This document shows, piece after piece, positions 14,105 to 28,624 of a stretch of 64,000 nt of DNA. Below the pieces are notes generated by a model, which was not told the DNA's origin, made no database searches, and worked only from the letters and a program-made list of their open reading frames with translations. The position numbers were made by a program, and so were the translations under genes. Position 1 is the first letter of the stretch. Each line of letters begins with the position of its first letter. Source of the stretch: Thermophilibacter provencensis. Its GTDB lineage: Bacteria > Actinomycetota > Coriobacteriia > Coriobacteriales > Atopobiaceae. Where the stretch lies: NCBI RefSeq assembly GCF_900128445.1, contig NZ_LT671417.1, positions 1,536,769 to 1,600,768 on the forward strand, written 5' to 3'.

Positions 14105-15547
14105 CTACAGCCGAGGAGCCATCGCCATGCCGATGGTGGTCCAGGGTTCGACCTCCTCGACGGGCGCGTTGTCCCAGAGGTCGAGGACCTCGGCCGGGAC
14201 GAACTCGCGACGCACGACGACCTCGCCGCCGTAGGTGCGCAACCACTCGGCGCTCGCCACGAGGTAGCCCTTCTTGCAGGCGTCCTCGCCCCAGCTGTTC
14301 TCGATCCGCCAGGCCACGGGGCGCCCGTCGTCGCCGAGCTCGACGCCCTGGAACGTCATGGCGTGGGTGTTGCGGGTCTCGTGCGCGTCGATCATCTCGG
14401 AGCGGCCCATGGAGAGGTCAACGCCGAAGAGCCCCTCGTAGTCCATCGTGTCGCACGCGAGCACGCCGGGGAAGTCCTCGATCCTGCGCGGGAACTGCTG
14501 CGCCACGTCGCAGGCCATCTCGCAGGGGACGCCCGCGCGCAGCGACGCCACGGCGGCGTCCTCGAGCACCTCGATGCCCACGTTGAGCATCCTGAGCGCC
14601 CGTCCCCCGGCCATGGTGTCCGAGAAGCGCCGGTGGAACGCGTGGCCGAAGGGACGGCCCTCGCCGGGCATGTGCACGAGCTGAACGTAGTCGTCGGGGT
14701 CGAAGGGCACGTAGCGCTCGGCGAACTCGCGGGGGGTGATGCCGCGGTCAACGAGGAGGCGGCGCGTCTTGCCGTCGGGCGCGGGCCCGCCCTCCTGCTC
14801 CACGAGCATGGAGGCGTGCACGCGGCACTTCTCGCCCACGGGGACCTCGACGTCGATCGTGGCGGGCGGCTCGCCGAGGCAGACGCAGAGCACGCGATGG
14901 CAGTCGGCGACCATGCCCTCCTTGGCGGCCCGCAGCTCGCCCGTGCCGGCGCCGGCGGCGGCCATGCGCCGCAGCTCCATGGCGCTCTTGCGGAAGAGGC
15001 GATCGAGCTGGGCGTTCATCTGGTCGGCGTCCTTGGTGCAGGCGCTCTCGGGCATGGCGTCCTTGGGCACGAGGCCCCACTTCTTGATGATGTTCATCGC
15101 GGCGGGGTAGTAGTTGCCGTCGCCCATCGAGTGCTCGAGCAGGTCGGAGACCTCGCGCGAGTCAGACGGGAGCGCGGCGGTCTCGATGACGTACTCGAGG
15201 CCCACGTTGAACTTCTCGAGCTTGTCGTAGAAGAAGCCGAAGGCCTGGGAGAACTCGAAGTCGTCCACGTCGAGGAGCTCCATCGTGGCCGCGCGGGCCA
15301 CGTTGAACGCGGAGAACATCCAGCAGCGGCCGGAGTGGCGCTGGTTGGTGACCTTGCCCGTGCGCAGGCGGCTCACGCGGAACGTGTCGTGGTAGGTGCG
15401 CATGCGCGAGACGTCGCGCGCGGCGGCGTGGACGTTCATCGAGGTCACGGCGTTTCTCGCCACGCGGTTCGCGCGGTCTGCCGAGAAGGACGCGGCGAGC
15501 TCGTCGGAGGTTGCGGGCGCGATGGCGCCGGCGGAGTAGTCGGTCAT
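14105..15547 (-). CDS. pepC: C1-family aminopeptidase (PepC/bleomycin hydrolase type), copy 1
   Basis: A 480-residue cytosolic papain-fold aminopeptidase that trims N-terminal residues from peptides. The catalytic set is visible: Q69 and C75 in NQRHSGRCWMFSAFN, the histidine in NTHAMTFQGV and the asparagine in RIENSWGED. Length is a little over the usual 440-450, with an insertion around residues 250-290. The ATG at 15547 follows AAGGGAGGCAGAC. It lies 11 bases downstream of a paralogue on the same strand, so the two form an operon. Confidence 0.92.
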   Translation of the reverse strand: MTDYSAGAIAPATSDELAASFSADRANRVARNAVTSMNVHAAARDVSRMRTYHDTFRVSRLRTGKVTNQRHSGRCWMFSAFNVARAATMELLDVDDFEFSQAFGFFYDKLEKFNVGLEYVIETAALPSDSREVSDLLEHSMGDGNYYPAAMNIIKKWGLVPKDAMPESACTKDADQMNAQLDRLFRKSAMELRRMAAAGAGTGELRAAKEGMVADCHRVLCVCLGEPPATIDVEVPVGEKCRVHASMLVEQEGGPAPDGKTRRLLVDRGITPREFAERYVPFDPDDYVQLVHMPGEGRPFGHAFHRRFSDTMAGGRALRMLNVGIEVLEDAAVASLRAGVPCEMACDVAQQFPRRIEDFPGVLACDTMDYEGLFGVDLSMGRSEMIDAHETRNTHAMTFQGVELGDDGRPVAWRIENSWGEDACKKGYLVASAEWLRTYGGEVVVRREFVPAEVLDLWDNAPVEEVEPWTTIGMAMAPRL

Positions 15548-15558
15548 GTCTGCCTCCC

Positions 15559-16917
15559 TTAGCGCACGCGCGCGAGCGAGCCCATGGGGTCCCACGGCGC
15601 CAGCACGCGGGGCTCCTCGGTCTCGTAGGCGGCGCGCTCCTCGTCCGTCAGGTGCCTCTTGTCAACGACGACCTGGTAGACGTACTCGTCAAACCATGCG
15701 TCGGAGAGGGTGTCGAAGCCGTCGCGGCCGTGGTCGGCACCCCAGCTGTTCTCCACCTTCCAGAGCGTGGGGCGGCCGGCCTCGTCCAGGTTCACGCCCT
15801 CGAGGACCATGGCGTGGGTCATGAGCGACTCGCCGTAGCCCAGGCGCTCGGCGCGGTCCATGCAGCCCTCCACCGGGAAGCCGAGAAGGCCGTCCACGTC
15901 CAGCGCGGCCGTGTCCATGATGCCCTCCTCGCGCAGGTAGCTCTGGCCCACGTCGCAGCCGAACCACACGGGCAGGTCCTCGCGCAGCTGGGCCACGGCG
16001 CACTCCTTGAGGCGCTGGATGGGGAGGTTGAGGTAGCGCACGCCGCCGTCCTCAACCACGTTGCCCAGGCGGCTCACGGTGTAGGTGTGGCCGAAGGGCT
16101 TGTCGGCGGTGGGGGCGGAGATGAGGCTCACGTAGTCGTCGACGTCCATGCCCACGGCCTCGTCGAAGAACGCGGCGGGCGTGAAGGTGCCGGAGAGCGC
16201 CAGCCTGCCGTCCTTGTCGCGCAGGCGGACGCCGAAGCTTGCGGGCGGCTCTCCGAGGCAGGTCACGAGGAGGTGGTAGACGTCGCCCATCATCTCCTTC
16301 TTCATGGCAGCGAGGTCGTCAGGCGCGACGCCGGCGGCGTGGCTCTCGCGCAGCCTCTTGGCGGCGCCGCGCAGGTAGCGCGTGAGGTAGGAGTCCATCT
16401 CGCGGGTGTTGCGCGAGCAGGCGGTCTCGGGCATGGCCTCCTTGGGCACCACGCCGTACTTCTTGACGAGGCTCTTGAACATGTCCCACTGCCCGCCGTC
16501 GCCGATGGGGTCGGCGAGCAGGTAGCTCACGAGGCGGCCGTCCAGCGGCTCGTCCAGCGTGTCGAGGACGTTCTCGAAGAACCAGTTGCTCTTCTCGAGC
16601 TTGTCCCAGAAGAGGGGGTATGCCTGGCTCAGCTCGAAGGTCTTGAGGTTGTACTTCTTGATGATGCGGTAGCGCATGGTGTTGAGGCTCGCGAACATCC
16701 AGCAGCGGCCCGAGCGCTCCTGGTTGCAGCGCTCGCCCTGCGTGACCTCGACGTCGAAGGTCAGGGCGTTTCTCGCGACCCCCTCGGGCACGCGCGCGGC
16801 GGCGCGGATGCCGACGGAGCTCACGGCGTTCTTGGCGACGACGTTGGCGCGCTCGGAGAAGAACTCCTCGCGGGCGGCCGCCAGGTCGTCGGCGGTGACG
16901 GATGCCATCTCGTCCAT
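15559..16917 (-). CDS. pepC: C1-family aminopeptidase (PepC/bleomycin hydrolase type), copy 2
   Basis: A 452-residue homologue of the next gene. Catalytic Q66 and C72 are in CNQERSGRCWMFASLN, the histidine in MTHAMVLEGVN and the asparagine in KVENSWGADHG. The two copies share the fold but differ widely in sequence, so the duplication is old. The ATG at 16917 follows GGGAGG nine bases upstream; the longer open frame upstream has no ribosome site. It is the first gene of the pair and is divergent from cca. Confidence 0.92.
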   Translation of the reverse strand: MDEMASVTADDLAAAREEFFSERANVVAKNAVSSVGIRAAARVPEGVARNALTFDVEVTQGERCNQERSGRCWMFASLNTMRYRIIKKYNLKTFELSQAYPLFWDKLEKSNWFFENVLDTLDEPLDGRLVSYLLADPIGDGGQWDMFKSLVKKYGVVPKEAMPETACSRNTREMDSYLTRYLRGAAKRLRESHAAGVAPDDLAAMKKEMMGDVYHLLVTCLGEPPASFGVRLRDKDGRLALSGTFTPAAFFDEAVGMDVDDYVSLISAPTADKPFGHTYTVSRLGNVVEDGGVRYLNLPIQRLKECAVAQLREDLPVWFGCDVGQSYLREEGIMDTAALDVDGLLGFPVEGCMDRAERLGYGESLMTHAMVLEGVNLDEAGRPTLWKVENSWGADHGRDGFDTLSDAWFDEYVYQVVVDKRHLTDEERAAYETEEPRVLAPWDPMGSLARVR

Positions 16918-17151
16918 GGGGCGGTACCTCCCATTCGTTGGCTCGGATTGGATCGGCATCGAGCATAGCACTCGGGCGCCGGCGCCGTTGCGGCGGGGCG
17001 GGCACTCCGGGTGCGTACGCGATTTGAGGTCCGATATCGTCTCCCCAGCGGGAAATCCGCAGGTCGGGGCCGCGGCGGGCATGACATCAACACGGAAACC
17101 TCGTACGTACCCGGACGTGGCGCGTACGCACCCGGGGGCGCCCGGCCGAGC

Positions 17152-17160
17152 TGCTAGAAT
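17152..17160 (+). promoter_or_regulatory. Extended -10 promoter of cca
   Basis: TGCTAGAAT, identical to the rnpB element, lies 32 bases before the cca start. The predicted leader begins with GTGGCGAGAAGAACC, which carries the GGCGAGAAG motif and the GAGAAGAAC leader motif seen before several other genes. Confidence 0.55.
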
Positions 17161-17192
17161 GTGGCGAGAAGAACCATGGGTGGAGGGGTCAT

Positions 17193-18587
17193 ATGGCTAC
17201 GGACATCGAGGGCCGCCTCGCGCGCGAGCTGCCCGCATACGCCCGGCGCGTCGTCGACGCGCTCGAGGCCGCCGGCTACGAGGCGTGGGTCGTCGGCGGC
17301 TGGGTCCGCGACGCCCTTCTCGGCGCGCCCGGCCACGACGTCGACGTGACCACCTCGGCCCCCTGGCAGAAGGCGGCGGCGGTGCTGCGCGCGGCGGGGA
17401 TCGCCGTGCACGAGACCGGCACCGCCCACGGGACGGTCACAGCCGTCGTGGGCGGCCGGCCCGTCGAGACCACCACCTACCGCGTGGAGGGCGCCTACAG
17501 CGACCGCCGCCATCCCGACGAGGTGCACTTCGTCACGGACGTCCGCGAGGACCTCGCGCGGCGCGACTTCACCGTCAACGCGATGGCGTTTCATCCGGAG
17601 CGCGGCCTGCTCGACCCCTTCGGCGGCGAGAGGGACCTCGCGGCGCGCGTCATCCGCGCGGTGGGGGAGCCGCGCAGGCGCTTCGAGGAGGACGCCCTGC
17701 GCGTGCTGAGGGCCGTGCGCTTCGCCTGCCGGCTCAGCGCCGCGATCGAGCCGGCCACGCAGGCGGCGCTCGAGGCGTGCGCGCCCGAGCTTGACCAGAT
17801 CGCGTCCGAGCGCATCGGCCAGGAGCTCGACGGGATCCTCGCCACGGGGCGCGTCGCCTGGGCGCTGCGCCACGAGTTCGCCGTGCTCGCCGCGGCGGTC
17901 CCCGAGCTCGCGCCAATGGAGGGCTTCGACCAGAGGAGCCCCTATCACGCTCATGACGTGCTCGAGCACACGGCGCGCGTCTGCGCGGGCGTGGAGGAGT
18001 TCGCGGGCGGGCGCCCGCTGCCGGCCCTGCGCTGGGCGGCGCTTTTGCACGACGTTGCCAAGCCGGCGTGCTGGAGCGAGGACGTCTCGGGGCGCGGACA
18101 CTTCTTCGGCCATCCCGAGGAGGGCGCCCGCACGGCGCGCCGCGTGATGGGGCGGCTGGCGGTTCCCGGGGAGGTGACGCGCGCCGCCGCGGCGCTCGTG
18201 CTGCTTCACGACTTCGAGATCCGCGCGACGGCCCCCTCCATGCGTCGGATGCTCTCCGAGCTGGAGGCGGCGGCGCCGGGGCAGGCGCGGCCGCTCGCCT
18301 TTGCCCTTCTGGACCTCAAGCGCGCCGACGCGGTGGCCAAGGCCCCCAAGTGCATGGGCTACGCGGTGGAGCTTGACGCCATGACGGCGGTCCTGCGCGC
18401 GGAGCTCTCCGCCGGGGCGGTGTGGCGCGTGCGCGACCTGGCCGTGGGCGGGGCGGACGTGATCCGCGAGCGCGGGGTGGAGCCCGGGCCCGGCGTGGGC
18501 ATGGTGCTCGCGCAGCTGCTCGAGGCCGTCAAGGCGGATGAGGTCCCCAACAGGCGCGACGATCTTCTCGCCTGGCTGAGGTGGTAG
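17193..18587 (+). CDS. cca: CCA tRNA nucleotidyltransferase
   Basis: A 464-residue class II CCA-adding enzyme that builds or repairs the 3' CCA of tRNAs. The nucleotidyltransferase motif AWVVGGWVRDALLG with the metal-binding DVDVTT is at residues 30-53, RRDFTVNAMAF at about 120, the nucleotide-selecting region EEDALRVLRAVRFACRL near 170, and an HD phosphohydrolase-like domain (ALLHDVAKP) in the C-terminal half. It lies just upstream of a tRNA cluster in which all three genes already encode CCA. ATG at 17193 follows GGAGGGGTCAT. Confidence 0.96.
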   Translation: MATDIEGRLARELPAYARRVVDALEAAGYEAWVVGGWVRDALLGAPGHDVDVTTSAPWQKAAAVLRAAGIAVHETGTAHGTVTAVVGGRPVETTTYRVEGAYSDRRHPDEVHFVTDVREDLARRDFTVNAMAFHPERGLLDPFGGERDLAARVIRAVGEPRRRFEEDALRVLRAVRFACRLSAAIEPATQAALEACAPELDQIASERIGQELDGILATGRVAWALRHEFAVLAAAVPELAPMEGFDQRSPYHAHDVLEHTARVCAGVEEFAGGRPLPALRWAALLHDVAKPACWSEDVSGRGHFFGHPEEGARTARRVMGRLAVPGEVTRAAAALVLLHDFEIRATAPSMRRMLSELEAAAPGQARPLAFALLDLKRADAVAKAPKCMGYAVELDAMTAVLRAELSAGAVWRVRDLAVGGADVIRERGVEPGPGVGMVLAQLLEAVKADEVPNRRDDLLAWLRW

Positions 18588-18650
18588 GTGCCGAGGGGCG
18601 ACACCCTCGTGCGAGGCTGCTCTAGAGCACAAGTTCTCCAAAATTCTCGC

Positions 18651-18679
18651 TTGCATGACGTGAGGGGATGCCGTATAGT
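18651..18679 (+). promoter_or_regulatory. Promoter of the tRNA cluster
   Basis: TTGCAT (18651-18656), a 17-base spacer and TATAGT (18674-18679) make a near-consensus housekeeping promoter. The predicted start is about 30 bases before tRNA-Gln. Confidence 0.8.
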
Positions 18680-18715
18680 GTTTCTCCGCGCTGAGAGGCG
18701 CACGAAGTGGCAAAT

Positions 18716-18789
18716 TGGGACTTCGTCTAGTGGTAGGACAGCGGATTCTGGTTCCGTCAACGGGAGTTCGACTCTCTCAGTCCCAGCCA
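18716..18789 (+). tRNA. tRNA-Gln (CTG)
   Basis: The 74-base gene folds as a cloverleaf: TGGGACT pairs with AGTCCCA, the anticodon stem GCGGA/TCCGT encloses TTCTGGT giving anticodon CTG, and the T-arm carries GTTCGACTC. The 3' CCA is encoded. Confidence 0.95.
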
Positions 18790-18818
18790 TTTGCCGCTTG
18801 CCTCACAATCGCATATGT

Positions 18819-18895
18819 GGCCCGTTCGTCTAGCGGTTCAGGACGCCGCCCTCTCAAGGCGGAGATCACCAGTTCGAATCTGGTACGGGCTACCA
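18819..18895 (+). tRNA. tRNA-Glu (CTC), copy 1
   Basis: A 77-base tRNA. GGCCCGT pairs with ACGGGCT (one G-U), the anticodon loop CTCTCAA between CCGCC and GGCGG gives CTC, the T-arm contains GTTCGAATC and CCA is encoded. Confidence 0.95.
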
Positions 18896-18898
18896 AAC

Positions 18899-18975
18899 GG
18901 CCCGTTCGTCTAGCGGTTCAGGACGCCGCCCTCTCAAGGCGGAGATCACCAGTTCGAATCTGGTACGGGCTACCA
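18899..18975 (+). tRNA. tRNA-Glu (CTC), copy 2
   Basis: Identical to the preceding tRNA-Glu across all 77 bases and spaced by three bases, so the pair is a recent tandem duplication with an 80-base period. Confidence 0.95.
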
Positions 18976-18983
18976 AACGTTCA

Positions 18984-19012
18984 GGGTCGGTCCTTCGGGT
19001 CCGGCCCTTTTT
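18984..19012 (+). terminator. Terminator of the tRNA cluster
   Basis: GGGTCGG (18984-18990) pairs with CCGGCCC (19001-19007) through a TCCTTCGGGT loop, followed by five T residues. It ends the tRNA transcript nine bases after the last CCA. Confidence 0.9.
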
Positions 19013-19040
19013 CGTTGTCGAGGTCATGGGTCACGCCGTC

Positions 19041-19110
19041 CCGAGCATGCCGTGGCGCACGGAAACCCCGCGTTCGAGGGGCGGTTCCGTGCCATGGGGC
19101 ATGCTCGGGC
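19041..19110. repeat. GCATGC palindrome, left flank of the PTS island
   Basis: A single full unit: left arm 19043-19062, a 24-base loop with its own CCCC...GGGG stem, right arm 19087-19106. Its 70 bases (19041-19110) match 24606-24675 on the other side of the PTS genes with one difference, in the same orientation. Confidence 0.93.
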
Positions 19111-19128
19111 GTGGTGCACACGCTTTGT

Positions 19129-21078
19129 TTATTTTCCGCGGATGATATGTTCTAGCCTCTCGATGGCATCTTCGTAGGAAGAGCTTTCAATTAATGATGA
19201 GGCGTTGAGGGGGTCAGCAAGCGCAGAGAGAAGATCGCCATAAAGGTTCATGAAGGATTCTCGCTCATATGGGGCCATTCCTAGGAGCAGGACGAGATTC
19301 ACCTTCTGCTTGCCCCACGAGATTGGCTGTCTACTGATGATGAGATACAGGAATGGCTGTACTGCCAGAGGGCGAAGCGTGTGGGGAATGGCGACAAGGT
19401 TGTTAAAGGAGGTTGGAGATAGACGTTCGCGCTCGAGCACATCGTCCTCAAAGCCATCCTCAACAAGTCCCTTGCGCTCACAGTCTGAGGCGAGTAGCTT
19501 GACTACTTCCTCTCGCGTCTTGACGGGTGGATCAAATTGGATGAGATCTGGGAGGATAAAGCGGCGAAGGGTAGAAGTCGTTGAATCTCCTCGTCGCGTA
19601 TTGAAGATGTCCTCAACACAGTTTTTCAGCGCGTGTTCGTCCGAATCACTCATCATCGGCCCAACGACAAACAAACGGATGTCTGGTGCAGCTTCAACGG
19701 GAGCCACGCTGACTATGAGGTCACAATCTATCTGATCAGGAACATAATCGGAGACCGCCTCAGCAAGTACGACTTCTCCGCGGATTCCGAGTGTCTCGTC
19801 AACGCGTTTCGTAAGAGTGCTTCCGAGCCCCTGGTAATCAAGGTAGAGTACTACACAACGTATCCGCCCACTTTTTTGCGGGCTTTGAGATAGGTACCCC
19901 CCGACGTGAAAGGCGAGAAACGCGATTTCGTCCTCGCTTACGGCGTAACCCGAAGATCCCTCGATGATTCCTGCTGCCCTGACGGCCATATCGTAAATTA
20001 ACGGGTAGTCAGACTTGACTTTATCCAACAACGGGTTGGGCACTTCCATACCGAGCTCCGCCCGGCGCAGAAGTAGGTTGACGTGCGCTGCGAGACGCCT
20101 AATGAACTCTTCCGAAAAGTCATCTAGGCAATAGGTCCACGAGAGACGCTCTGCTATCTCACGTGCAATGCGTAGGTCGCTTGGGGTTACAAGCTCAAGT
20201 TCCTCAGGTTTGTTTTGCCCTCTGCGTGTGTTGGTTTCGACGATGAGGGAGACGTAGGTGCGTTCCGCAGTGTTTATCTCGATGCCAAGTACTTTCCCGA
20301 CCAAAGAGCAGATTTCGTTGGCGGCATGCTGAGAGGCGTCGGATGCTCCGGTCCAACTGAGATCCGTATCACTGATGGCCGACCCAAGAGATATCCTGCT
20401 TGCCATAATCTGAAGGTGAATCACGAGGTTATCGAGGCCGAAGTCACTGCAAGCGAGCTCGTTTTTGTCCAGGACGTCTTTAACAAGCCTGTTAGTTTCG
20501 GTTGGGTCGAGGGTATTTCCCGCGGGGAGATTTGCAACAGGTGACGGGAAGTCGGCGAGGGGGTGCTCTCGCATGATGTGCCTGATGAGTCTTCGTTTGT
20601 CTCGCTCGGCTCCCTCAATCCAAACAAACTCGCGCCGCCTGGCAAGGTGAAGGCCTCTTTCGGAGAGCCGCGGGCGTAGTGACCTAAAGAGCGCTGAGAG
20701 AGAGGAGTCAGAGACGTGGAGAACCTCGGCAAGGTCATAGACGCTTTGGGCACCTGGACGAGAAAGCAGCATCATGAGCAGCCGGTTGTCACGCTTGGCC
20801 ACGGGCGTGATACGGGCTGAAGGCATGGCGTACTCGCCGGCGTTCGCCATAAGACGATAGCCCCTGTGGGACGACTCGATTATCTGACGGCTCTTGTTTG
20901 CTCTGCGTACGTAGGAACGTACGGTCCTCGTTGTTACCTGGAACGCTTCCGCTAAAGCTTGCGCCTCGACCCAGTCGCCTTGTTTACGAAGCACCGTGAG
21001 CAAGGCATCGATCGTCATTTGCATGCCTGCACCGCCTTTCGTGCTGGCCATTACAGCAAGTTCTTGCCCGCTCGTCAA
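19129..21078 (-). CDS. BglG/MtlR-type PTS-controlled transcription regulator
   Basis: A regulator of about 649 residues with the order: N-terminal helix-turn-helix domains (MTIDALLTVLRKQGDWVEAQ, then QSVYDLAEVLHVSDSSLSAL), two PRD domains (conserved histidines in the HVNLLLRRAELG and AFHVGG regions), an EIIB-like domain and a C-terminal EIIA domain with active histidine in LVAIPHTLRPL. Such proteins activate the neighbouring PTS genes when phosphorylated by the PTS. The EIIB-like P-loop, VVLYLDYQGLGSTL, lacks the usual cysteine. The start is uncertain: a TTG at 21078 is preferred because GGAAGGAGG precedes it, but ATGs at 21051 and 21024 are possible. A+T content and codon use differ sharply from the flanks. 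Confidence 0.85.
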   Translation of the reverse strand: MTSGQELAVMASTKGGAGMQMTIDALLTVLRKQGDWVEAQALAEAFQVTTRTVRSYVRRANKSRQIIESSHRGYRLMANAGEYAMPSARITPVAKRDNRLLMMLLSRPGAQSVYDLAEVLHVSDSSLSALFRSLRPRLSERGLHLARRREFVWIEGAERDKRRLIRHIMREHPLADFPSPVANLPAGNTLDPTETNRLVKDVLDKNELACSDFGLDNLVIHLQIMASRISLGSAISDTDLSWTGASDASQHAANEICSLVGKVLGIEINTAERTYVSLIVETNTRRGQNKPEELELVTPSDLRIAREIAERLSWTYCLDDFSEEFIRRLAAHVNLLLRRAELGMEVPNPLLDKVKSDYPLIYDMAVRAAGIIEGSSGYAVSEDEIAFLAFHVGGYLSQSPQKSGRIRCVVLYLDYQGLGSTLTKRVDETLGIRGEVVLAEAVSDYVPDQIDCDLIVSVAPVEAAPDIRLFVVGPMMSDSDEHALKNCVEDIFNTRRGDSTTSTLRRFILPDLIQFDPPVKTREEVVKLLASDCERKGLVEDGFEDDVLERERLSPTSFNNLVAIPHTLRPLAVQPFLYLIISRQPISWGKQKVNLVLLLGMAPYERESFMNLYGDLLSALADPLNASSLIESSSYEDAIERLEHIIRGK

Positions 21079-21225
21079 ACCGCCTCCTTCCTCCAAAGCG
21101 GAAGTGTTGGTAACGAAGTCACGTTTCCGCATAGAGGGAAGTCTCTCAGTTTTCTTTTTCCTGGTGGTTCGTGAGAAAACGCTTTCGGAGGGAGCCTGTG
21201 TGGAAGAGGAGAGGAGGTGAACAAC
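21079..21225. promoter_or_regulatory. Divergent control region of the PTS island
   Basis: The 147 bases between the regulator and the IIA gene must hold both promoters. A GTTTTC (21149-21154) and its complement GAAAAC (21175-21180) form an imperfect inverted repeat in the middle that could be the regulator's operator. No consensus promoter stands out. Confidence 0.35.
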
Positions 21226-21681
21226 GTGCTGTTCAACGAGAAACTTGCCAGATTTCATGTGAGAGCGGATTCGGCGAGGCAGGCTATCTGCCTTGGCTCG
21301 CGTATGCTGCTTGAAGCAGGTGATGTGAAGGGTGAGTTCGAGCGACGTGTGCTTGAGCGCGAGGTACTGTTTCCTACAGGGCTCGATGTCCAACCAGTTG
21401 GGGTGGCGATTCCCCACACCGACTCTATTTACGTTAACCACTCACAGATGGCCTTTGTGTCCCTTCGGCGACCGGTGGAGTTTCGCTATATGGCGGATAA
21501 GGATCGGATTGTCAGGGTGGGGATGGTGTTCGTTCTCGCAATGGCTCATTCTCACGAACAGGTCGATACTCTGAGCGCGCTTATGGGGCTTTTTGCGCGA
21601 GAGGAGACGGTTTCCGAGCTGTATGAATGTGCATCGTCAGTTGAGCTGGCTGCACTTTTACAACGTAACGGAATCAGCTAA
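21226..21681 (+). CDS. PTS EIIA, fructose/galactitol (type 2) family
   Basis: A 151-residue cytosolic EIIA that relays phosphate from HPr to the EIIB at 23101. The active site is in VGVAIPHTDSIYVNHSQM. The segment VREVLFPTGLDVQ-like around residues 45-55 and the C-terminal EQVDTLSALMGLF are typical of the galactitol branch. The GTG at 21226 is preferred: GAGGAGGTG ends seven bases before it; a GTG at 21217 is inside that ribosome site. Confidence 0.9.
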   Translation: MLFNEKLARFHVRADSARQAICLGSRMLLEAGDVKGEFERRVLEREVLFPTGLDVQPVGVAIPHTDSIYVNHSQMAFVSLRRPVEFRYMADKDRIVRVGMVFVLAMAHSHEQVDTLSALMGLFAREETVSELYECASSVELAALLQRNGIS

Positions 21682-21709
21682 CAGTTTGTTTCTTGAGAAG
21701 GGAAATGCA

Positions 21710-23044
21710 ATGATTGATGCGATCTTGCAGTGGGTTATCGGATTGGGCGGAACAATCCTTGTCCCGGCAATCCTCATCATCCTCGGTCTCGTTGTTCGTC
21801 TCAAGCCATCTCGTGCGATTCAGGCTGGACTTACTGTTGCCGTTGGCATGATTGGCGTCAACGCCATCATTGGCATACTTACCTCGGCTCTCGCCCCCGC
21901 AGTGCAGGCAATGGTAGAGAACTTCAATCTCTCCCTTAACATTATCGACATGGGAAGCGGTACGGCAGGCCCCCTGTCCTTCTCGACGACACTCGGTGTC
22001 CTGATTATTCCTATTGCCATAGTAATCAACCTTGCGCTTGTTTGGATGGGTCTGACCAAGACGCTAAACGTTGACGTCTGGAATCTTTGGCAGCCTGCTA
22101 TGGTGGGAGTTATGGTCTGGGCGGTTACAGGCGATTATCTACTCGCAGTCTGCTCCATGGTTCCGTTTTTCCTGCTTGAGCTGTTGCTGGCGGATATTTT
22201 CCAGCCAATGATCTCGAGATTCTTCGGACTTCCCGGTATCGCCATTACGCATGTTATGGCACTTGCTGGCTTGGTTCTTGCAGTGCCACTTAACTGGGTT
22301 TTTGAGCACATTCCCGGTATTGGCAAGATTGACGTTAGCTCAGAGACGATTCAGAGGCGATTTGGGTTCCTTGGAAACCCCATGTTTATTGGATTTGTTA
22401 TCGGCTGCATCATCGGCGTGCTTGCTAGGTTTGACTTTGCTGGCGTCGTGAACCTGGGCCTTCAGACTGCTGCGGTTCTTATGCTGCTTCCCAAGATGAT
22501 TTCAATGTTCATGGAAGGGCTTACTCCGATTGCTGAGGCAACCCAGCAGTTTACTGAGAAGCACCTTCACGGGGCAGACGTTAACATCGGCATGGACGCC
22601 GCCCTTACCGTCGGCAACCCAGATGTTCTTGCCGTCTCCATCGTTATGATTCCGATTACGCTTTTCATTGGCGTTGTCCTTCCTGGAAACCAGGTCCTTC
22701 CCGTTGGTGATTTGCCGACGCTCGTCTTTGCGCTGTGCCTCATGGTTGCAGCGTTCCGCGGGAACTTCGTGCGCTCCATCATCGGCTGCTCGATATATAC
22801 CGTAACGATGCTCTATCTGGCCACCTGGATTGCCCCTGCCCTTACGGGTGCGTACCAAATTGCCGGATATGCGGTTGAGGGCCTCGCATCTTTTGTCTCC
22901 GCCGGGCTGTGGCCCAACGCTCTTGGCCTCGCTGCCGCTCAGTATGGTGGCTATGTTGGCGTTGCGGTGCTCTCTGTCATTGTGCTCGTTCTGCTCTTCT
23001 ACGTTAACAAGGTGCTTCGTCGTCCTTCCAATCAGAATGTATAA
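21710..23044 (+). CDS. PTS EIIC, galactitol (GatC) family
   Basis: A 444-residue membrane permease of the PTS galactitol family with about 10-12 hydrophobic helices. Recognisable pieces are the N-terminal MIDAILQWVIGLGGTILVPAI..., IDMGSGTAGPLSFSTTLG, and the central NPMFIGFVIG...LPKMISMFMEGLTPIAEA. It carries the sugar across the membrane while the IIB phosphorylates it. Galactitol-family permeases also take other polyols and pentoses, so the substrate cannot be read from the sequence. ATG at 21710 follows GAGAAGGGAA. Confidence 0.92.
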   Translation: MIDAILQWVIGLGGTILVPAILIILGLVVRLKPSRAIQAGLTVAVGMIGVNAIIGILTSALAPAVQAMVENFNLSLNIIDMGSGTAGPLSFSTTLGVLIIPIAIVINLALVWMGLTKTLNVDVWNLWQPAMVGVMVWAVTGDYLLAVCSMVPFFLLELLLADIFQPMISRFFGLPGIAITHVMALAGLVLAVPLNWVFEHIPGIGKIDVSSETIQRRFGFLGNPMFIGFVIGCIIGVLARFDFAGVVNLGLQTAAVLMLLPKMISMFMEGLTPIAEATQQFTEKHLHGADVNIGMDAALTVGNPDVLAVSIVMIPITLFIGVVLPGNQVLPVGDLPTLVFALCLMVAAFRGNFVRSIIGCSIYTVTMLYLATWIAPALTGAYQIAGYAVEGLASFVSAGLWPNALGLAAAQYGGYVGVAVLSVIVLVLLFYVNKVLRRPSNQNV

Positions 23045-23100
23045 TTAAATTAGAACACTTATGACGGTGAATTAGAAATAGAGGGAAGTTGTATTTAAAT

Positions 23101-23391
23101 ATGAAAACAATTCTTATTATGTGCGGAGCTGGACACGCGACCTCGACTGTCGTGCGCTCTAAAGTTGGCCGATGGCTCGAATCGGAGGGCCTGGAGGGGA
23201 CGGTTCAGATTAAGCAATCTGCAGTGACGCGCGAAGTCGAGAACATCTCAAATGGTGTCTATGACGTTGTGGTGTCCACCACGCAGGTCCCCGACTCAAT
23301 CAAGAGCAAGGTCATCAACGGCATTGCCCTCCTTACCGGTGCAGGAACCGATTCTGTGTTTGCGCAGATCAAAGCTGAGCTGGAGAAGTGA
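23101..23391 (+). CDS. PTS EIIB, galactitol/lactose-like family
   Basis: A 96-residue EIIB. The N-terminal MKTILIMCGAGHATSTVV is the phosphorylated P-loop with its cysteine at residue 8. It completes the IIA-IIC-IIB set as three separate polypeptides. The ATG at 23101 gives a normal N-terminus; the ribosome site GAGGGAAG is rather far upstream (14 bases), so the TTG at 23089 is an alternative. The 56 bases between IIC and IIB are very A+T-rich. Confidence 0.9.
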   Translation: MKTILIMCGAGHATSTVVRSKVGRWLESEGLEGTVQIKQSAVTREVENISNGVYDVVVSTTQVPDSIKSKVINGIALLTGAGTDSVFAQIKAELEK

Positions 23392-23398
23392 GAGCAAC

Positions 23399-23923
23399 AT
23401 GATTGTGAGACATGCAAGGATTGATGTCCACTCGTGCGCGGGACGCCCCTCGTATCATAATGTCACCGATGATGTCAGGCTCATCGTGTCAGAGAGTGGT
23501 ATTCGTGACGGCATTTGTGTCGTGGCTTCCGCTCATACCACCTGCTCGGTCTTCTTCGAAGAGTTTATGCATGACCGAAATTTCTACGGCGATGAGTTTT
23601 TGCACGTTGATCTTAACGAGGTGCTAGATCGGGTCGTTCCGCGTCAGACTACTGAGGGCCAATATCATAGTCCTGGCCCCGAGCACCTTGCATATGGCAT
23701 GGCGAAGGCCGATCCCGACTATCCAGCACAGGAATGGACCATGCTCAATACCGACGGCCATCTTAGGAGCGATTTGCTTGGTGCGTCTGAGACGTTTCCC
23801 ATCAAGGGCGGAGAGCTTCTGGTGGGGGCTGTGGGCTCCATCTACTTTGTCGACTTTGATCAGACGCGCGAGCGCGACCGGCATATCAATGTAGTCGTGC
23901 TTGGAAGTGGGGAGGGAGTATGA
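23399..23923 (+). CDS. YjbQ-family protein (UPF0047)
   Basis: A 174-residue member of the YjbQ/UPF0047 family. Typical segments are GICVVASAHTTCSVFFEE, LRSDLLGASETFPIKGGELLVGAVGSIYFVDFD and a final HINVVVLG. YjbQ proteins show weak thiamine-phosphate synthase activity, but the true role is unknown; some lie in PTS operons, as here. It starts seven bases after IIB and ends in an ATGA overlap with the SIS gene, so it is part of the same transcript. Confidence 0.88.
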   Translation: MIVRHARIDVHSCAGRPSYHNVTDDVRLIVSESGIRDGICVVASAHTTCSVFFEEFMHDRNFYGDEFLHVDLNEVLDRVVPRQTTEGQYHSPGPEHLAYGMAKADPDYPAQEWTMLNTDGHLRSDLLGASETFPIKGGELLVGAVGSIYFVDFDQTRERDRHINVVVLGSGEGV

Positions 23924-24516
23924 GTACCGAGACAGTGAGAAGCGTTATGCAAGCAGAGAGCGCAGAGCTTGAAAAGCTTGCGGAAAGCATCGATTCCCGG
24001 GCCATCAAACGCTTTGAGGGGATGATTCGCGACGAGGACCGCTGCATTTTCTTTACGGGATGCGGAACCTCGGCTATGGCGGCACGAAAGTGCGTTCATA
24101 CGCTCCAGGTAATCGGCAGACGCGCTTTCTACCTCAATCCAAGCGATGCGGTGCACGGAGGTCTGGGCGCAATACGGGATGAAGATGTTGTCATCGTCAT
24201 TTCTAAGGGCGGGGAGACCAAGGAGCTCTCGGCATTTATTCCTTGCCTTCGGGAGAAAGGCGCTACGATTGTTGTGGTCGGCGAGAAGGAGGAATCGTCC
24301 ATTGGTAAGATGGCGAGCCTCTTCATCCGAGTAAAGATTGACCGCGAGCCCGACTCCTTTAATATGCTGGCGACCGCCAGCACGCTTGCGGTAATTTCAC
24401 TGTTTGACGGCATTGCCATTTCGCTCATGCGTGAGAGTGGCTTCTCTCGGGAGGCGTTTTTAGCTAACCATCCCAGCGGGGATGTGGGAGCGCGTCTTGC
24501 GGAGGGGCGTGAATAA
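23920..24516 (+). CDS. SIS-domain sugar-phosphate isomerase (arabinose-5-phosphate isomerase-like)
   Basis: A 198-residue single SIS domain. It reads most like the SIS half of KdsD/GutQ: FFTGCGTSAMAARK, LNPSDAVHGGLGAIRDEDVVIVISKGGETKEL, ATASTLAVISLFDGIAISLM and ANHPSGDVGARL. The CBS domains of full-length KdsD are missing. Family knowledge: KdsD interconverts D-arabinose 5-phosphate and D-ribulose 5-phosphate. As last gene of the PTS operon it is the obvious first step for the imported sugar phosphate. A 6-phospho-3-hexuloisomerase-like role is the main alternative. Confidence 0.8.
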   Translation: MSTETVRSVMQAESAELEKLAESIDSRAIKRFEGMIRDEDRCIFFTGCGTSAMAARKCVHTLQVIGRRAFYLNPSDAVHGGLGAIRDEDVVIVISKGGETKELSAFIPCLREKGATIVVVGEKEESSIGKMASLFIRVKIDREPDSFNMLATASTLAVISLFDGIAISLMRESGFSREAFLANHPSGDVGARLAEGRE

Positions 24517-24558
24517 TCGAGCGCAGGGTTGTGGCGGACAGACCACTTTACCTATGGG

Positions 24559-24605
24559 ACGGTGTGCTGGTGAGATTGTTATTCTTGCCAGCACGCCGTT
24601 TGTTT
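24559..24605 (+). terminator. Terminator of the PTS operon
   Basis: ACGGTGTGCTGG (24559-24570) pairs with CCAGCACGCCGT (24588-24599, one G-U pair) and is followed by TTGTTT. It is 42 bases past the SIS stop. Confidence 0.75.
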
Positions 24606-24890
24606 CCGAGCATGCCGTGGCGCACGGAAACCCCGCGTTCGAGGGGCGGTTCCGTGCCACGGGGCATGCTCGGGCATTCCGTGCTGGGAGGCATGTTCGC
24701 GAGGTCCTTCCCTCGCGTCCTTCTCGCCAGCAGTGGTCGCGACCATGCCATGGCGCACGCTTCTTTCGAGCATGCCTGGACGCACGGAATCGTGACGAGT
24801 TCGAGCCCGCCTGTGCCATGGGGCATGCTCGCCAGGAGGCGGGGCATCAGGCGGGCGCGAGAAGGGCAGGCGAGAAGGGCGGGCGAGAAG
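24606..24890. repeat. Cluster 4 of the GCATGC palindrome with GGCGAGAAG motifs
   Basis: No gene is seen in the 400-base gap. The first unit (24608-24627 with 24652-24671) is the near-identical twin of 19043-19106. A second full unit is 24768-24787 with 24811-24830. Lone arms lie at 24679-24698 and 24741-24760. Downstream, GGCGAGAAG occurs at 24869-24877 and 24882-24890, with a GCGCGAGAAG just before; the inverse form is at 24720-24728. The stretch GCATG(C/T)TCGCGAGGTCC is shared with cluster 1. Confidence 0.92.
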
Positions 24891-24917: not shown

Positions 24918-26525
24918 CTACTGCCCGCAGGCCCCGCATGCCGCGCACGCGGCGCGGGCCGTGGGCGTTGCGGCAAGGCCGCCGCGCGCGGTCTCGCGCA
25001 GGCGCGAGGGCAGGGCGTGGCCGACCTCGGCCATGGCGGCGACGACCTCGTCAAACGGCACGAGCGAGCGCACGCCGGAGAGCGCGAGCTGCGCCGAGGA
25101 GATGGCGGCCGCGACGCCGATGGCGTTTCTCGCCTGGCAGGGCACCTCGACGAGGCCCCCCACCGGGTCGCAGACGAGCCCCAGCAGGTTGGAGATGGCA
25201 AGCGAGCTCGCCGTCAACGCCTGCTCGGGCGTGCCGCCGAGCAGCTCGACCACAGCCGCCGCCGCCATCGCGGCGGCGGAGCCCACCTCGGCCTGGCAGC
25301 CGCCCTCGGCCCCGGCCACGCACGCGTGCGTCTGGATGTTGAGGCCGACGGCGGCGGCGCACCAGAGGGCGGACGCCACGGCGTCGTCATCCGCGCCCAC
25401 GGCGTCCGCGACGGCGAGGACGCTGCCCGGCACCACGCCGGCCGAGCCCGCCGTGGGGGCGGCCACGATGACGCCCATCGCGGCGGAGCGCTCGAGCACG
25501 GCCATCGCGCGGGCCACGGCGTCGGTCTGCACCGGCCCCATGAGCGAGCCGGACCAGCGCGCGGAGCCGGCATCCAGGAGCTGGGCCTCGCCGCCGATGA
25601 AGCCGCCGAGCGAGCGGGCCGGCGCCGCGATGGGCGCCGTCGTCTCCTCGCGCATGACCTCGATCACGCGGCGCATGGACGCCTCGGCGCGCTCCTCTCC
25701 CGTGAGGCCGCGCTCGCGCAGCGCCATCACGCCGCCGATGGAGAGGCCTCGGTCGGCGCAGGCCTCCAGGAGCTGCGCGCCGTCGTCGAAGAGCTCGGCG
25801 GCCGTGACGCCGGGGGAGACCGTGGAGGCCGAGCCGGGAACCGATATGAAGGTGGCGAAGCTCACGTCGCGGATGCGGCGGATCATGGGCAGCACCGAGT
25901 CGTCCGGCGCGCCGTCCGTCTCGAAGACCGAGTACGCGCGCCCGCCCTGCTCGGTGCGGTACGTGCGGCAGAAGGCGATGTTGACCTCCGCCATCGCGAG
26001 CAGGTGGGTGAGGGAGGCGAGGATGCCGGGGGCGTCTCTGTGCGAGACGAAGAGCGTGGCATAGGCGCCCGTGATGTCCACGCCCACGCCGTTGATGCGG
26101 CTGATGCGCATCTTGCCGCCGCCGAGGCTCTCGCCGCGGACCTGGCAGCGCGCCCCGGACTCGCCCTCAAGGTCGATGTCGACGGTGTTGGGGTGGACGG
26201 AGGTGTCGTCGCCCGCCTCGACGAACTCGAAGGCCAGGCCCGCCTCGCGCGCGAGGTCGAAGGCGTCGCGGATGCGCTCGTCGTCGGTGTCCAGCCCGAG
26301 CACGCCCGCCACGAGCGCGCGGTCCGTGCCGTGCCCGCGGTAGGTGTGCGCGAAGGAGTTCCACAGCGTGAAGCGCACGCGGGAGACGCGGCCCCCCATG
26401 AGCGAGGCGGCCACGCGGGCGCAGCGCAGGGCGCCGGCCGTATGGGACGAGGAGGGTCCCACCATGACGGGGCCGAGCACCTCGAAGGCCGAGGTCGTGG
26501 CGAGGGTCTGCGGCTTTGCTGCCAT
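24918..26525 (-). CDS. sdaA: L-serine dehydratase (iron-sulfur, single chain)
   Basis: A 535-residue enzyme deaminating L-serine to pyruvate and ammonia. The N-terminal beta part carries LGPVMVGPSSSHTAGALR and an ACT-like section (FVSHRDAPGILASLTHLLA); the alpha part contains GGEAQLLDAG, the 4Fe-4S region GAEGGCQAEVGSA and GLVCDPVGGLVEVPCQARNA. Both parts are fused as in the E. coli type. The C-terminus ends in a cysteine-rich tail (CAACGACG). The ATG at 26525 follows GGAAGGAGCCCCC. It is monocistronic and divergent from the DUF969 operon. Confidence 0.93.
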   Translation of the reverse strand: MAAKPQTLATTSAFEVLGPVMVGPSSSHTAGALRCARVAASLMGGRVSRVRFTLWNSFAHTYRGHGTDRALVAGVLGLDTDDERIRDAFDLAREAGLAFEFVEAGDDTSVHPNTVDIDLEGESGARCQVRGESLGGGKMRISRINGVGVDITGAYATLFVSHRDAPGILASLTHLLAMAEVNIAFCRTYRTEQGGRAYSVFETDGAPDDSVLPMIRRIRDVSFATFISVPGSASTVSPGVTAAELFDDGAQLLEACADRGLSIGGVMALRERGLTGEERAEASMRRVIEVMREETTAPIAAPARSLGGFIGGEAQLLDAGSARWSGSLMGPVQTDAVARAMAVLERSAAMGVIVAAPTAGSAGVVPGSVLAVADAVGADDDAVASALWCAAAVGLNIQTHACVAGAEGGCQAEVGSAAAMAAAAVVELLGGTPEQALTASSLAISNLLGLVCDPVGGLVEVPCQARNAIGVAAAISSAQLALSGVRSLVPFDEVVAAMAEVGHALPSRLRETARGGLAATPTARAACAACGACGQ

Positions 26526-26726
26526 GGGGGCTCCTTCCGGGCGCGTGGCCCTGCGCGGGATGCGGCGACCGCGCTGGGGCGCCGTCGCCGCGCCCCGCGT
26601 CGGGCGCTCTTCTCAGCACCAAGCATACCGCGTCCGCCACGGCGGGTGCGCCCGCGCGCCGCGCCCCTGTGACGCCCCCGTTTCGTGATGTTTCCGTTTG
26701 CGCACGTTCTTCTCGGTGCGAGCGCG

Positions 26727-26747
26727 ACTTGGATACGATAGCCAAGT
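26727..26747. promoter_or_regulatory. Palindrome upstream of the DUF969 operon
   Basis: ACTTGG-N9-CCAAGT lies 29 bases before the DUF969 start, in a locally A+T-rich patch that also contains TACGAT (26734-26739). It could be an operator overlapping a promoter; this is inference. The remaining bases 26526-26726 show no gene. Confidence 0.4.
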
Positions 26748-26775
26748 TGGATTGTCTCTCGAAGAAGGAGGACCG

Positions 26776-27567
26776 ATGGATCCCGCAGAGCTCCTCAAGC
26801 TCCTGGGAATCGTCATCGTCGTCGTGGGCTTCGCGCTGAAGCTCGACTCCATCCTCATCATCATGGTGGCCGCGATCGCGACCGCCGTGGTGGGCGGCAT
26901 GGACCCGGTGGCGTTCTTGGACACCCTTGGCACGAGCTTCGTCTCCAACCGGAGCATGTGCATCTTCATCATGACGTTCGTGCTCACGGGTACGCTTGAG
27001 CGAAACGGCCTGCGCCAGGCGGCGGCAGCGCTCATTCGCAAGCTCAAGAACGCCACGTCGGGCATCATCATCTCCGCCTACGGCGTCGTGCGCGTCCTCT
27101 TTGCCGCCTTCAACATCAACTTCGGCGGCGTGGCCGGCTTCATCCGCCCGGTCATCATGCCCATGGCCCAGGCGGCCGTTGAGCGCGACGGCAAGAAGAT
27201 CGGCGACGGTCACCTCGAGGAGCTCAAGGGCATGTCCTCGGGCATGGACAACGTTGCGTGGTTCTTCGGTCAGGTGCTCTTCGTTGGCGGCTCGGGCGGC
27301 CTGCTCGTCCAGGGCACGCTCGCGGGCCTCGGCTACGACGTGAGCCTGCTCGACCTCGCCATGGTGCAGGTGCCCGTGGCCGTGGTCGCCATGCTCGCCG
27401 CAATCGTCTACTACAACGTTATCGACCGTCGCCTCACCAAGCGCCGCGCACGCGTCATCAAGGCAACCGGGTCGGCCTCCTACGAGGAGGGCTCCGCCGA
27501 GACCGGGGCCGAGGGCGCCGGCACGGCCGCGCCCGCCGACGCCGAGAAGGGCGGTGAGGCAAAGTGA
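26776..27567 (+). CDS. DUF969 membrane protein, likely 5-oxoproline transporter subunit
   Basis: A 263-residue protein with about six hydrophobic segments; the first starts at residue 7 (LLKLLGIVIVVVGFALKL). It matches the DUF969 family in length and in its partnership with DUF979 and pyrrolidone-carboxylate peptidase. Comparative genomics has tied this pair to 5-oxoproline metabolism as a probable transporter; that is family knowledge, not shown here. The C-terminal 35 residues are a Gly/Ala/Glu-rich cytoplasmic tail. ATG at 26776 follows AAGGAGGACCG. The stop overlaps the GTG of the next gene. Confidence 0.85.
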   Translation: MDPAELLKLLGIVIVVVGFALKLDSILIIMVAAIATAVVGGMDPVAFLDTLGTSFVSNRSMCIFIMTFVLTGTLERNGLRQAAAALIRKLKNATSGIIISAYGVVRVLFAAFNINFGGVAGFIRPVIMPMAQAAVERDGKKIGDGHLEELKGMSSGMDNVAWFFGQVLFVGGSGGLLVQGTLAGLGYDVSLLDLAMVQVPVAVVAMLAAIVYYNVIDRRLTKRRARVIKATGSASYEEGSAETGAEGAGTAAPADAEKGGEAK

Positions 27568-28526
27568 CGGAGTTCATCCAGTTCTTCCAGAGCGCCGACG
27601 TGACGCTCTCTGACAAGCTCCTCGAGGTCGCCTACATCGTCATGGGACTCATCGCCGTCTACGCGGGCATCCGCAACGCGCAGGACGAGACCAACCCCAA
27701 GCGCATGGGCACGGCCCTGTTCTGGGTGGTCTGCGGCATGCTGTTCATCGTCGGCCGCTGGGTGCCGAGCACCGTCGCGGGCGCGATGGTCGTCATCATG
27801 GTCATCCCCGCCATCTGCAAGCAGGTTGGCCGCGGCACGGGCGACGAGCCCACTCAGGAGGAGATGGAGGGCAACTACGAGAAGATCGGCATGAAGCTCT
27901 TCGTGCCCGCGCTCTCGCTGGGCGTCATGGCTCTCATCTTCGCCCTCTTCACCAACATCAGCTCGCTCGTCGGCCTCACCTTCGGCGTCGTGGTGGGCGG
28001 CCTCATGCTCTTCGCGTTCTCGCACAAGAACACGCCCAAGGTGTTCCTTAACGACACGCGCCGCATGCTTGACGCGGTGGGCCCGCTCTCGATGCTGCCG
28101 ATCCTGCTCGCCGCCCTCGGCTCCATCTTCACCGCCGCTGGCGTGGGAGACGTCATCTCCCACATCGTCTCCGGCGTGATTCCGCAGGGCAACCTGGTGG
28201 TGGGCATCATCGTCTACGCCATCGGCATGGCCGTCTTCACCATGGTCATGGGCAATGCCTACGGCGCCATCACGGTGCTCACGGTGGGCATCGGCGCGCC
28301 GTTCGTCCTCTCGCTCGGCGCCGACCCCGCCCTCATCGGCTCGGTGGCGCTCACCTGCGGCTTCTGCGGCACGCTCATGACGCCCATGGCGGCCAACTTC
28401 AACATCCTGCCGGTGGCCATCCTCGAGATGAAGGACTCCTACGGCGTCATCAAGAAGCAGATCCCCATCGCGCTGTTCATGCTCGCCGCGCAGATCGTCT
28501 ACATGATCGTCATGACCGCCCTCTAG
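27564..28526 (+). CDS. DUF979 membrane protein, partner of DUF969
   Basis: A 320-residue protein with about nine hydrophobic helices, one glycine-rich (VVVGGLMLFAFSH). The C-terminal section CGFCGTLMTPMAANFNILPVAILEM is well suited to the DUF979 family. Together with DUF969 it probably forms one transporter. The GTG at 27564 overlaps the DUF969 stop (GTGA), so subunits are made in a fixed ratio. Confidence 0.85.
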   Translation: MTEFIQFFQSADVTLSDKLLEVAYIVMGLIAVYAGIRNAQDETNPKRMGTALFWVVCGMLFIVGRWVPSTVAGAMVVIMVIPAICKQVGRGTGDEPTQEEMEGNYEKIGMKLFVPALSLGVMALIFALFTNISSLVGLTFGVVVGGLMLFAFSHKNTPKVFLNDTRRMLDAVGPLSMLPILLAALGSIFTAAGVGDVISHIVSGVIPQGNLVVGIIVYAIGMAVFTMVMGNAYGAITVLTVGIGAPFVLSLGADPALIGSVALTCGFCGTLMTPMAANFNILPVAILEMKDSYGVIKKQIPIALFMLAAQIVYMIVMTAL

Positions 28527-28535
28527 CGCATAACC

Positions 28536-28594
28536 TGACAGAGGTGACAGGGTAAATTGTCATCATGACAGTTGACCCTGTCACCTTTGTCAGA
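28536..28594. repeat. Intra-operon inverted repeat before pcp
   Basis: CTGACAGAGGTGACAGGGT (28536-28554) and ACCCTGTCACCTTTGTCAG (28576-28594) are complementary with one mismatch, and the loop contains a second small hairpin (TGTCATCATGACA). It lies 10 bases past DUF979 and 31 before pcp. No T-run follows, so it may set relative expression or RNA stability instead of ending transcription. Confidence 0.85.
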
Positions 28595-28624
28595 AACCAC
28601 CCGACCTGGAAGGAAGCGATACGC

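Follow-up and report, generated by a model that had tools for sequence, protein, structure and literature searches.

Many small gene gains in bacteria come without a visible mobility gene. Strain-specific DNA at palindromic repeats of the repetitive extragenic palindromic (REP) or bacterial interspersed mosaic element (BIME) type is already known. Specifically, the Escherichia coli reports tie 100 strain-specific loops to BIMEs, and in 69 of these the BIME accounts for the entire loop or for over half of it (PMC1187871, PMC1525189); short variable segments of this species include palindromic units, according to a further account (PMC2884548). In Neisseria, the 20-bp dRS3 repeat, of which there are nearly 700 copies, is an integration site for a filamentous phage (PMC3898611). 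Here we describe a locus of Thermophilibacter provencensis at which an operon of the phosphotransferase system (PTS) lies between two near-identical copies of one REP-like palindrome. The locus belongs to a stretch of 64,000 nucleotides (the window, whose numbering is used below) on contig NZ_LT671417.1 of the source genome (G000; 2.63 Mb in 3 contigs), where it corresponds to C3:1536769-1600768, and it was compared above all with two sister species (genomes G012 and G018). Our analysis indicates that the operon is foreign and was probably gained in the G000 lineage at a resident palindrome, which was duplicated in the process.

The locus shares some features with each of these systems. Like the E. 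coli BIME loops, it combines lineage-specific DNA with intergenic palindromic repeats that the DNA adjoins or contains, but it differs in that an operon of 5.5 kb is enclosed by two copies of a single palindrome, and the repeat family is another one (PMC1187871, PMC1525189). As with dRS3, a dispersed repeat with terminal inverted repeats serves as an insertion site, whereas the island described here is without a known recombinase and its repeat copies are locus-specific (PMC3898611). A further parallel is found in the O-antigen clusters of O157, where palindromic REP sequences lie at some borders of exchanged gene clusters; that case, however, is a locus replacement between strains, and the accessible portion of the account does not describe palindrome duplication around an insertion (PMC3158064).

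With respect to the borders of the island, the analysis bore out a claim made when the DNA was read from its letters alone (hereafter the sequence-only reading), namely that 70-bp direct repeats in the same orientation at 19041-19110 and 24606-24675 are identical at 69 of 70 bases. The sole mismatch falls at 19095, with T in the left copy and C in the right copy. The elements concerned are as follows.

19041-19110, no strand: left border copy of the palindrome, with T at 19095 as in the single copy of G012 and G018
24606-24675, no strand: right border copy of the palindrome, which is the first palindrome of the composite element
24608-24830, no strand: composite element of 223 bp, consisting of palindrome, inverted half-site, spacer, half-site and palindrome

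A hairpin is predicted for each border copy (folding was computed for these two copies only), and the predicted folding of 19041-19110 as single-stranded DNA has an energy of -27.2 kcal/mol (z -4.99). The stem of the left copy spans 19040-19109, placing hairpin and repeat in agreement to within 1 bp, and on both sides the duplication ends no more than 1-2 bp from the hairpin base.

The single-copy site that the sequence-only reading had proposed to look for in related genomes is present in both sister species. Each carries tRNA-Gln and two tRNA-Glu genes, one copy of the palindrome, and then the same downstream DNA with the L-serine dehydratase gene sdaA; the PTS genes are absent. When the window flanks were joined through the left copy and used as query, the alignment was continuous from upstream of tRNA-Gln into sdaA, at 92% identity in G012 and 91% in G018 over about 1.2 kb. 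Whole-stretch comparison of the three genomes, which reports length differences of at least 250 bp, also returned the island as a length difference against both, and the matches flanking it have 71 bp (G012) or 72 bp (G018) in common, corresponding to the duplicated palindrome. At the two informative bases, T at 19095 and G at 19111, the left copy is the same as G012 and G018 and the right copy differs at both. The composite arrangement seen at 24608-24830 is present in its entirety at the empty site of both sister species; the island lies at one end of it, and only the first palindrome is doubled. The state before (one palindrome) and the state after (two near-identical copies around a foreign operon) are therefore both in hand, which turns the role of palindromes as gene-capture sites into a testable question.

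Across the genus, each of the 31 genomes searched has a match to the tRNA region, in some cases a short one. A survey of the site in 29 loci of other genus genomes, extending at most about 1.5 kb to each side, included one locus without a tRNA-Glu match and one ending 7 bp past the tRNA; sdaA lay 221 to 1,250 bp downstream (within about 1.5 kb) in 11 of the remaining 27. Palindrome pairs at the surveyed site were confined to G012 and G018, and the G044 locus has a lone half-site at 3 mismatches.

The likeness of the two border copies is a property of this locus. Counting 4 flanking bases on each side, they are 97% identical, and of all other pairs formed by the 25 palindromes found in the fetched G000 sequence the best is only 81% identical, so the identity of the border pair exceeds chance and cannot be put down to conservation throughout the family, a possibility that the sequence-only reading had raised against itself. 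The best within-genome pairs elsewhere reach 85% in G012 (n=30) and 83% in G018 (n=23). Both border copies also have the loop sequence of the tRNA-Glu/sdaA locus. Given this 97% likeness against 81% for the next-best pair, the duplicated palindrome is, by its sequence, the one resident at the tRNA-Glu/sdaA site.

The DNA between the repeats is, as first described, a self-contained PTS module of deviating composition. The island interval (19111-24605; 5,495 bp) is 95% coding, holds six genes and has 53.3% G+C in a neighbourhood of about 70%; per kilobase, the flanking DNA has 68-74% at 17001-19000 and 66-76% at 25001-29000. A shift at the borders is likewise apparent in G+C at third codon positions (GC3), which is 0.57-0.62 in the island genes versus 0.88-0.97 in eight neighbouring genes. 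A regulator gene is divergently transcribed from the genes for EIIA, EIIC, EIIB, YjbQ and SIS. The genes of the island and its flanks are listed here.

18716-18789, plus strand: tRNA-Gln, in the conserved left flank; tRNA order the same in the sister species
18819-18895, plus strand: first tRNA-Glu, in the conserved left flank; tRNA order the same in the sister species
18899-18975, plus strand: second tRNA-Glu, in the conserved left flank; tRNA order the same in the sister species
19129-21126, minus strand: PRD-type regulator with HTH_11, two PRD stretches and an EIIA domain (domain profiles); start codon uncertain
21217-21681, plus strand: PTS EIIA (PF00359)
21710-23044, plus strand: PTS EIIC, galactitol family (PF03611; below the TIGR00827 cut-off)
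23101-23391, plus strand: PTS EIIB (PF02302)
23399-23923, plus strand: UPF0047/YjbQ protein (domain profiles)
23920-24516, plus strand: SIS-domain protein, KpsF/GutQ-like; CBS domain not found
24918-26525, minus strand: L-serine dehydratase, sdaA, in the conserved right flank; the same in the sister species

Pfam searches found no recombinase, integrase, transposase or other mobility gene among the six island genes, in keeping with the initial statement that no integrase is present, and with six genes at 95% coding there is hardly room for a recombinase. The island appears to be a clear-cut case of genes acquired at a palindrome with no integrase among them. The two tRNA-Glu genes are identical to each other. 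The island had been placed directly after this pair; the left repeat in fact starts 66 bp past the end of the second tRNA-Glu, beyond a terminator-like hairpin, and neither border repeat contains tRNA sequence. The tRNA genes are neighbours of the island and not its insertion site. Apart from the three tRNAs and RNase P RNA, a search of positions 7000-38500 with Rfam at gathering threshold returned nothing.

In terms of origin, relatives of the module are found mainly outside the genus. For EIIC, nothing above 38% identity was found in 39 further genomes (24 from the genus and 15 from elsewhere in the order), although 20 of them contain distant relatives. The best relatives of the SIS protein among 395 order genomes come from other genera of the same family (62% in G128, 61% in G084, 60% in G085 and 49% in G097), and in the rest of the genus the best is at about 31% among the matches listed. 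The other objection that the sequence-only reading had raised against itself, that all relatives carry the module, likewise falls away in the genomes searched. Since close EIIC and SIS relatives are lacking in the rest of the genus (for SIS, among the matches listed), and with the three species compared, gain in the G000 lineage appears to be the likeliest direction of change. The whole module is present in G084 and G085, which represent another genus of the family (EIIC 65%, YjbQ 76%, SIS 60-61%, regulator 38-39%), at 47-51% G+C in stretches that are otherwise mostly at 58-68%; G097 has five of the six genes, and in G128 SIS alone was found on a 7.9-kb contig. More distantly, Lactobacillus-related, Sporolactobacillus and Heyndrickxia genomes have EIIA-EIIC-EIIB-YjbQ-SIS in the same order at eight loci (about 36-68% identity), a weakly similar regulator being present at seven of these loci, and EIIC relatives occur on Lacticaseibacillus plasmids, the best at 58.5% (Lacticaseibacillus paracasei). 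This synteny in G084, G085 and bacilli, together with the plasmid-borne EIIC relatives, marks the module as a travelling operon. A direct donor was not found, plasmid search included, and viral contigs contained no relative of EIIC.

Taken together, these observations suggest a history in which a horizontally acquired operon (regulator, EIIA, EIIC, EIIB, YjbQ and SIS) would have inserted at the REP-like palindrome between tRNA-Glu and sdaA, doubling the resident palindrome and thereby producing the 70-bp direct repeat that now brackets it. The likeliest reaction would be recombination into the resident copy of a circular or strain-borne molecule with the same palindrome, for instance a circle from another strain, and it could be RecA-dependent or proceed via a recombinase supplied in trans; recombination in reverse would restore the empty site. 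We give this joining reaction roughly an even chance, as there is less support for it than for the direction of change. A palindrome from elsewhere in the genome is an unlikely partner, because mixed copies would then be expected and none are seen (unless gene conversion followed later). It follows that either the incoming molecule carried the palindrome of this locus or insertion involved copying of the resident one. The initial suggestion that the repeats served as sites of recombination or insertion is thus upheld for the gain at the palindrome, for which empty sites exist, and is provisional for the joining reaction.

Several observations weigh against this history. The orthologous palindrome is almost unchanged between species, so the 69/70 identity of the border copies cannot date the event. 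The gain is argued from parsimony, and loss in both sister species could also account for the pattern; moreover, the species is represented by one genome, in which an acting recombinase was not observed. The branching order of the three species has a weak basis, namely identities over about 6 kb to the right of the site of 91.3% for G000-G012, 88.5% for G000-G018 and 89.5% for G012-G018. Finally, the modules of G084 and G085 are without a palindrome pair or a long bracketing repeat, the fetched stretches having one half-site each at 3 mismatches outside the module, which argues that palindromes are not the module's usual vehicle.

Among other routes to the same arrangement, a genomic island of the integrase type that used the palindrome as its attachment core, and whose integrase was lost or acts in trans, is rather unlikely; this route overlaps with the explanation we favour. 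The tRNA neighbourhood, the flanking direct repeats, the lineage-specific presence and the foreign composition are all shared with tRNA-associated genomic islands, but the repeat does not derive from a tRNA 3' end and neither an integrase, a remnant of one nor another mobility gene was found; the sole integrase-type insertion beside an array of these palindromes, in G012, uses its own 23-base repeats and not the palindrome. The marks of an insertion sequence with target-site duplication were not found either: the island has no transposase, and the outer 120 bp of its two ends share no exact inverted match of at least 8 bases (imperfect repeats were not tested). This same lack of terminal inverted repeats and of a recombinase suits a capture linked to the hairpin or cruciform, which would achieve the same gain by a different reaction and which we consider somewhat unlikely. 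Here the palindrome would be extruded or replication would stall, opposite-strand nicks would form at both hairpin bases and foreign DNA would be joined; fill-in of the ends of about 70 nt, or template switching that leaves the hairpin base and later returns to it, would then double exactly one palindrome. Such a route would explain the exact ends and would need the resident copy alone: the duplication matches the hairpin to within 1-2 bp, one palindrome and not the 223-bp element is doubled, and both copies represent the resident allele with no chimaeric pattern. Identical ends are, however, also expected if the partner in recombination was an incoming palindrome with non-matching flanks, and the 17 palindrome loci of G000 provide this single example.

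An ancestral arrangement of palindrome, island and palindrome, with the island lost in both sister lineages by recombination between the repeats, is improbable. Recombination between 70-bp direct repeats is possible and would leave exactly the single copy observed, but one gain and two losses would be required, the codon composition of the island is unameliorated, and in four genomes (G001, G020, G008 and G021) sdaA follows the tRNA pair at a distance of about 221-576 bp with no palindrome there. Least probable is a tandem duplication of the palindrome by slippage, followed later by entry of foreign DNA between the copies: the unit numbers of arrays do vary between species, but in none of the three genomes (78 palindromes detected in all) is another pair more than 85% identical. 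Gain at the resident palindrome with duplication of that palindrome is the explanation we favour.

The palindromes belong to a REP-like family, numerous in the three sister species, that is brought to notice here. Its half-site GAGCATGCCNNNGCGCACGG occurs 80 times in G000 at no more than 2 mismatches, versus 5 times for the reversed control; at no more than 1 mismatch the counts are 47 in G000, 73 in G012 and 41 in G018, and 0 to 6 in 22 other genomes of the genus. Across 140 family genomes, half-sites without mismatch number 24, 28 and 20 in G000, G012 and G018, and one each in four others; in viral contigs, 14 stretches have one exact half-site each, which we take as chance. The half-sites pair in inverted orientation at 62-64 nt, and some loci are composites of about 223 bp with two pairs and two extra half-sites. 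Of 18 G000 arrays, all 18 align in place with fetched stretches of G012 and 16 with those of G018, a result that demonstrates common position and is not an unbiased census, the stretches having been fetched because half-sites were present. On this evidence the family looks mostly inherited, with unit numbers per array that vary between species. In the 63 palindromes of exact 63-nt spacing (of the 78 detected in three genomes), only the pairs 12-52 and 31-33 covary clearly above shuffles (0.43 versus 0.32 shuffled and 0.44 versus 0.31 shuffled, respectively), so the alignment gives no strong sign of selection for pairing.

REPINs, as characterized in the available part of their description, resemble this family in having two inverted half-sites around a spacer and a predicted hairpin, but no Y1 transposase gene flanked by palindromes is found in G000 (PMC3116915). 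G000 does contain dispersed inverted pairs capable of forming hairpins, as REP/REPIN systems with RAYT genes do. RAYT genes are constantly flanked by their repeats, according to the accessible sections of that study, and the GT(A/G)G head given there is absent, by eye, before GAGCATGCCNNNGCGCACGG in the listed copies (PMC2817692). Each of the 4 Y1_Tnp genes of G000 lies at least 5.1 kb from the nearest palindrome locus, and a link to RAYTs was rejected. The open-licence literature searched yielded no description of the family or of the tRNA-Glu/sdaA site, and the family is apparently undescribed.

How far the process extends beyond this locus was assessed at the 17 palindrome loci of G000, the two border arrays being counted as one and the G018 counterparts of C3:1520202 and C3:1682403 not being included. 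None of these loci shows another difference of at least 250 bp that is bordered by a palindrome on each side and matched by an empty site with one copy. The broader proposal of the sequence-only reading, that palindromes act as general vehicles of gene gain and loss, therefore has one case behind it and is not supported. A related possibility is that palindromes of the family are break points at which hairpin or cruciform processing captures foreign DNA and leaves one palindrome on each side; we hold this to be unlikely. If true, a direct repeat resembling that of an island would arise with no need for an integrase, a transposase or long homology.

The candidate closest to a second case is found at C3:1520155-1524334, where G000 and G012 differ by 4.2 kb. 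With a palindrome at one side (1520202) and a lone half-site at the other (1524143), this segment to that extent favours the broader proposal. The half-site is inside the segment, about 85 bp before the junction by eye, the junction bases shared are approximately TGGGACG and the G+C is native; junction and composition do not fit, and the segment was rejected. Its interval C3:1520265-1524143, missing from G012 there, has two lipoprotein-like open reading frames (ORFs) and an ORF of 819 amino acids, none with a Pfam match. An 8.7-kb insertion in G012 (C35:72402-81116) starts beside a palindrome array; it was set aside as integrase-type, with its own 23-base end repeats (22/23 alike) in place of the palindrome and an apparently frame-broken tyrosine integrase (Phage_integrase, PF00589 in one ORF). 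Palindromes lie on one side only of a 770-bp difference at 1980319 and of an inverted segment of about 415 bp (C3:1727494-1727905), and both were discarded, as were small array-length differences touching arrays. The latter segment is inverted in G012, was not found at the G018 counterpart and contains a 60-bp palindrome of different sequence. At C3:2066984-2067882, a conserved place, the DNA of G012 differs from that of G000, and each has a Y1 transposase-like gene.

A few further observations concern the genome and the window at large. The fetched stretches did not locate a terminus by GC skew. Relative to the best DnaA-like match (475 kb, below the family cut-off), 16 of the 17 palindrome loci of G000 are on the opposite half of the main contig, a bias with a one-sided binomial probability of 1.4e-4 if that match marks the origin. 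Upstream of the tRNA genes, the minus strand carries at 14105-17082 a pair of neighbouring genes for C1-like peptidases (PF03051), which are 71-78% alike over several stretches and apparently represent a tandem duplication. In addition, the 12-mer GTCCTTCTCGCC occurs 29 times in the window at no more than 1 mismatch versus 0.8 expected, for example at 4724, 24717 and 34085, with some occurrences beside palindromes.

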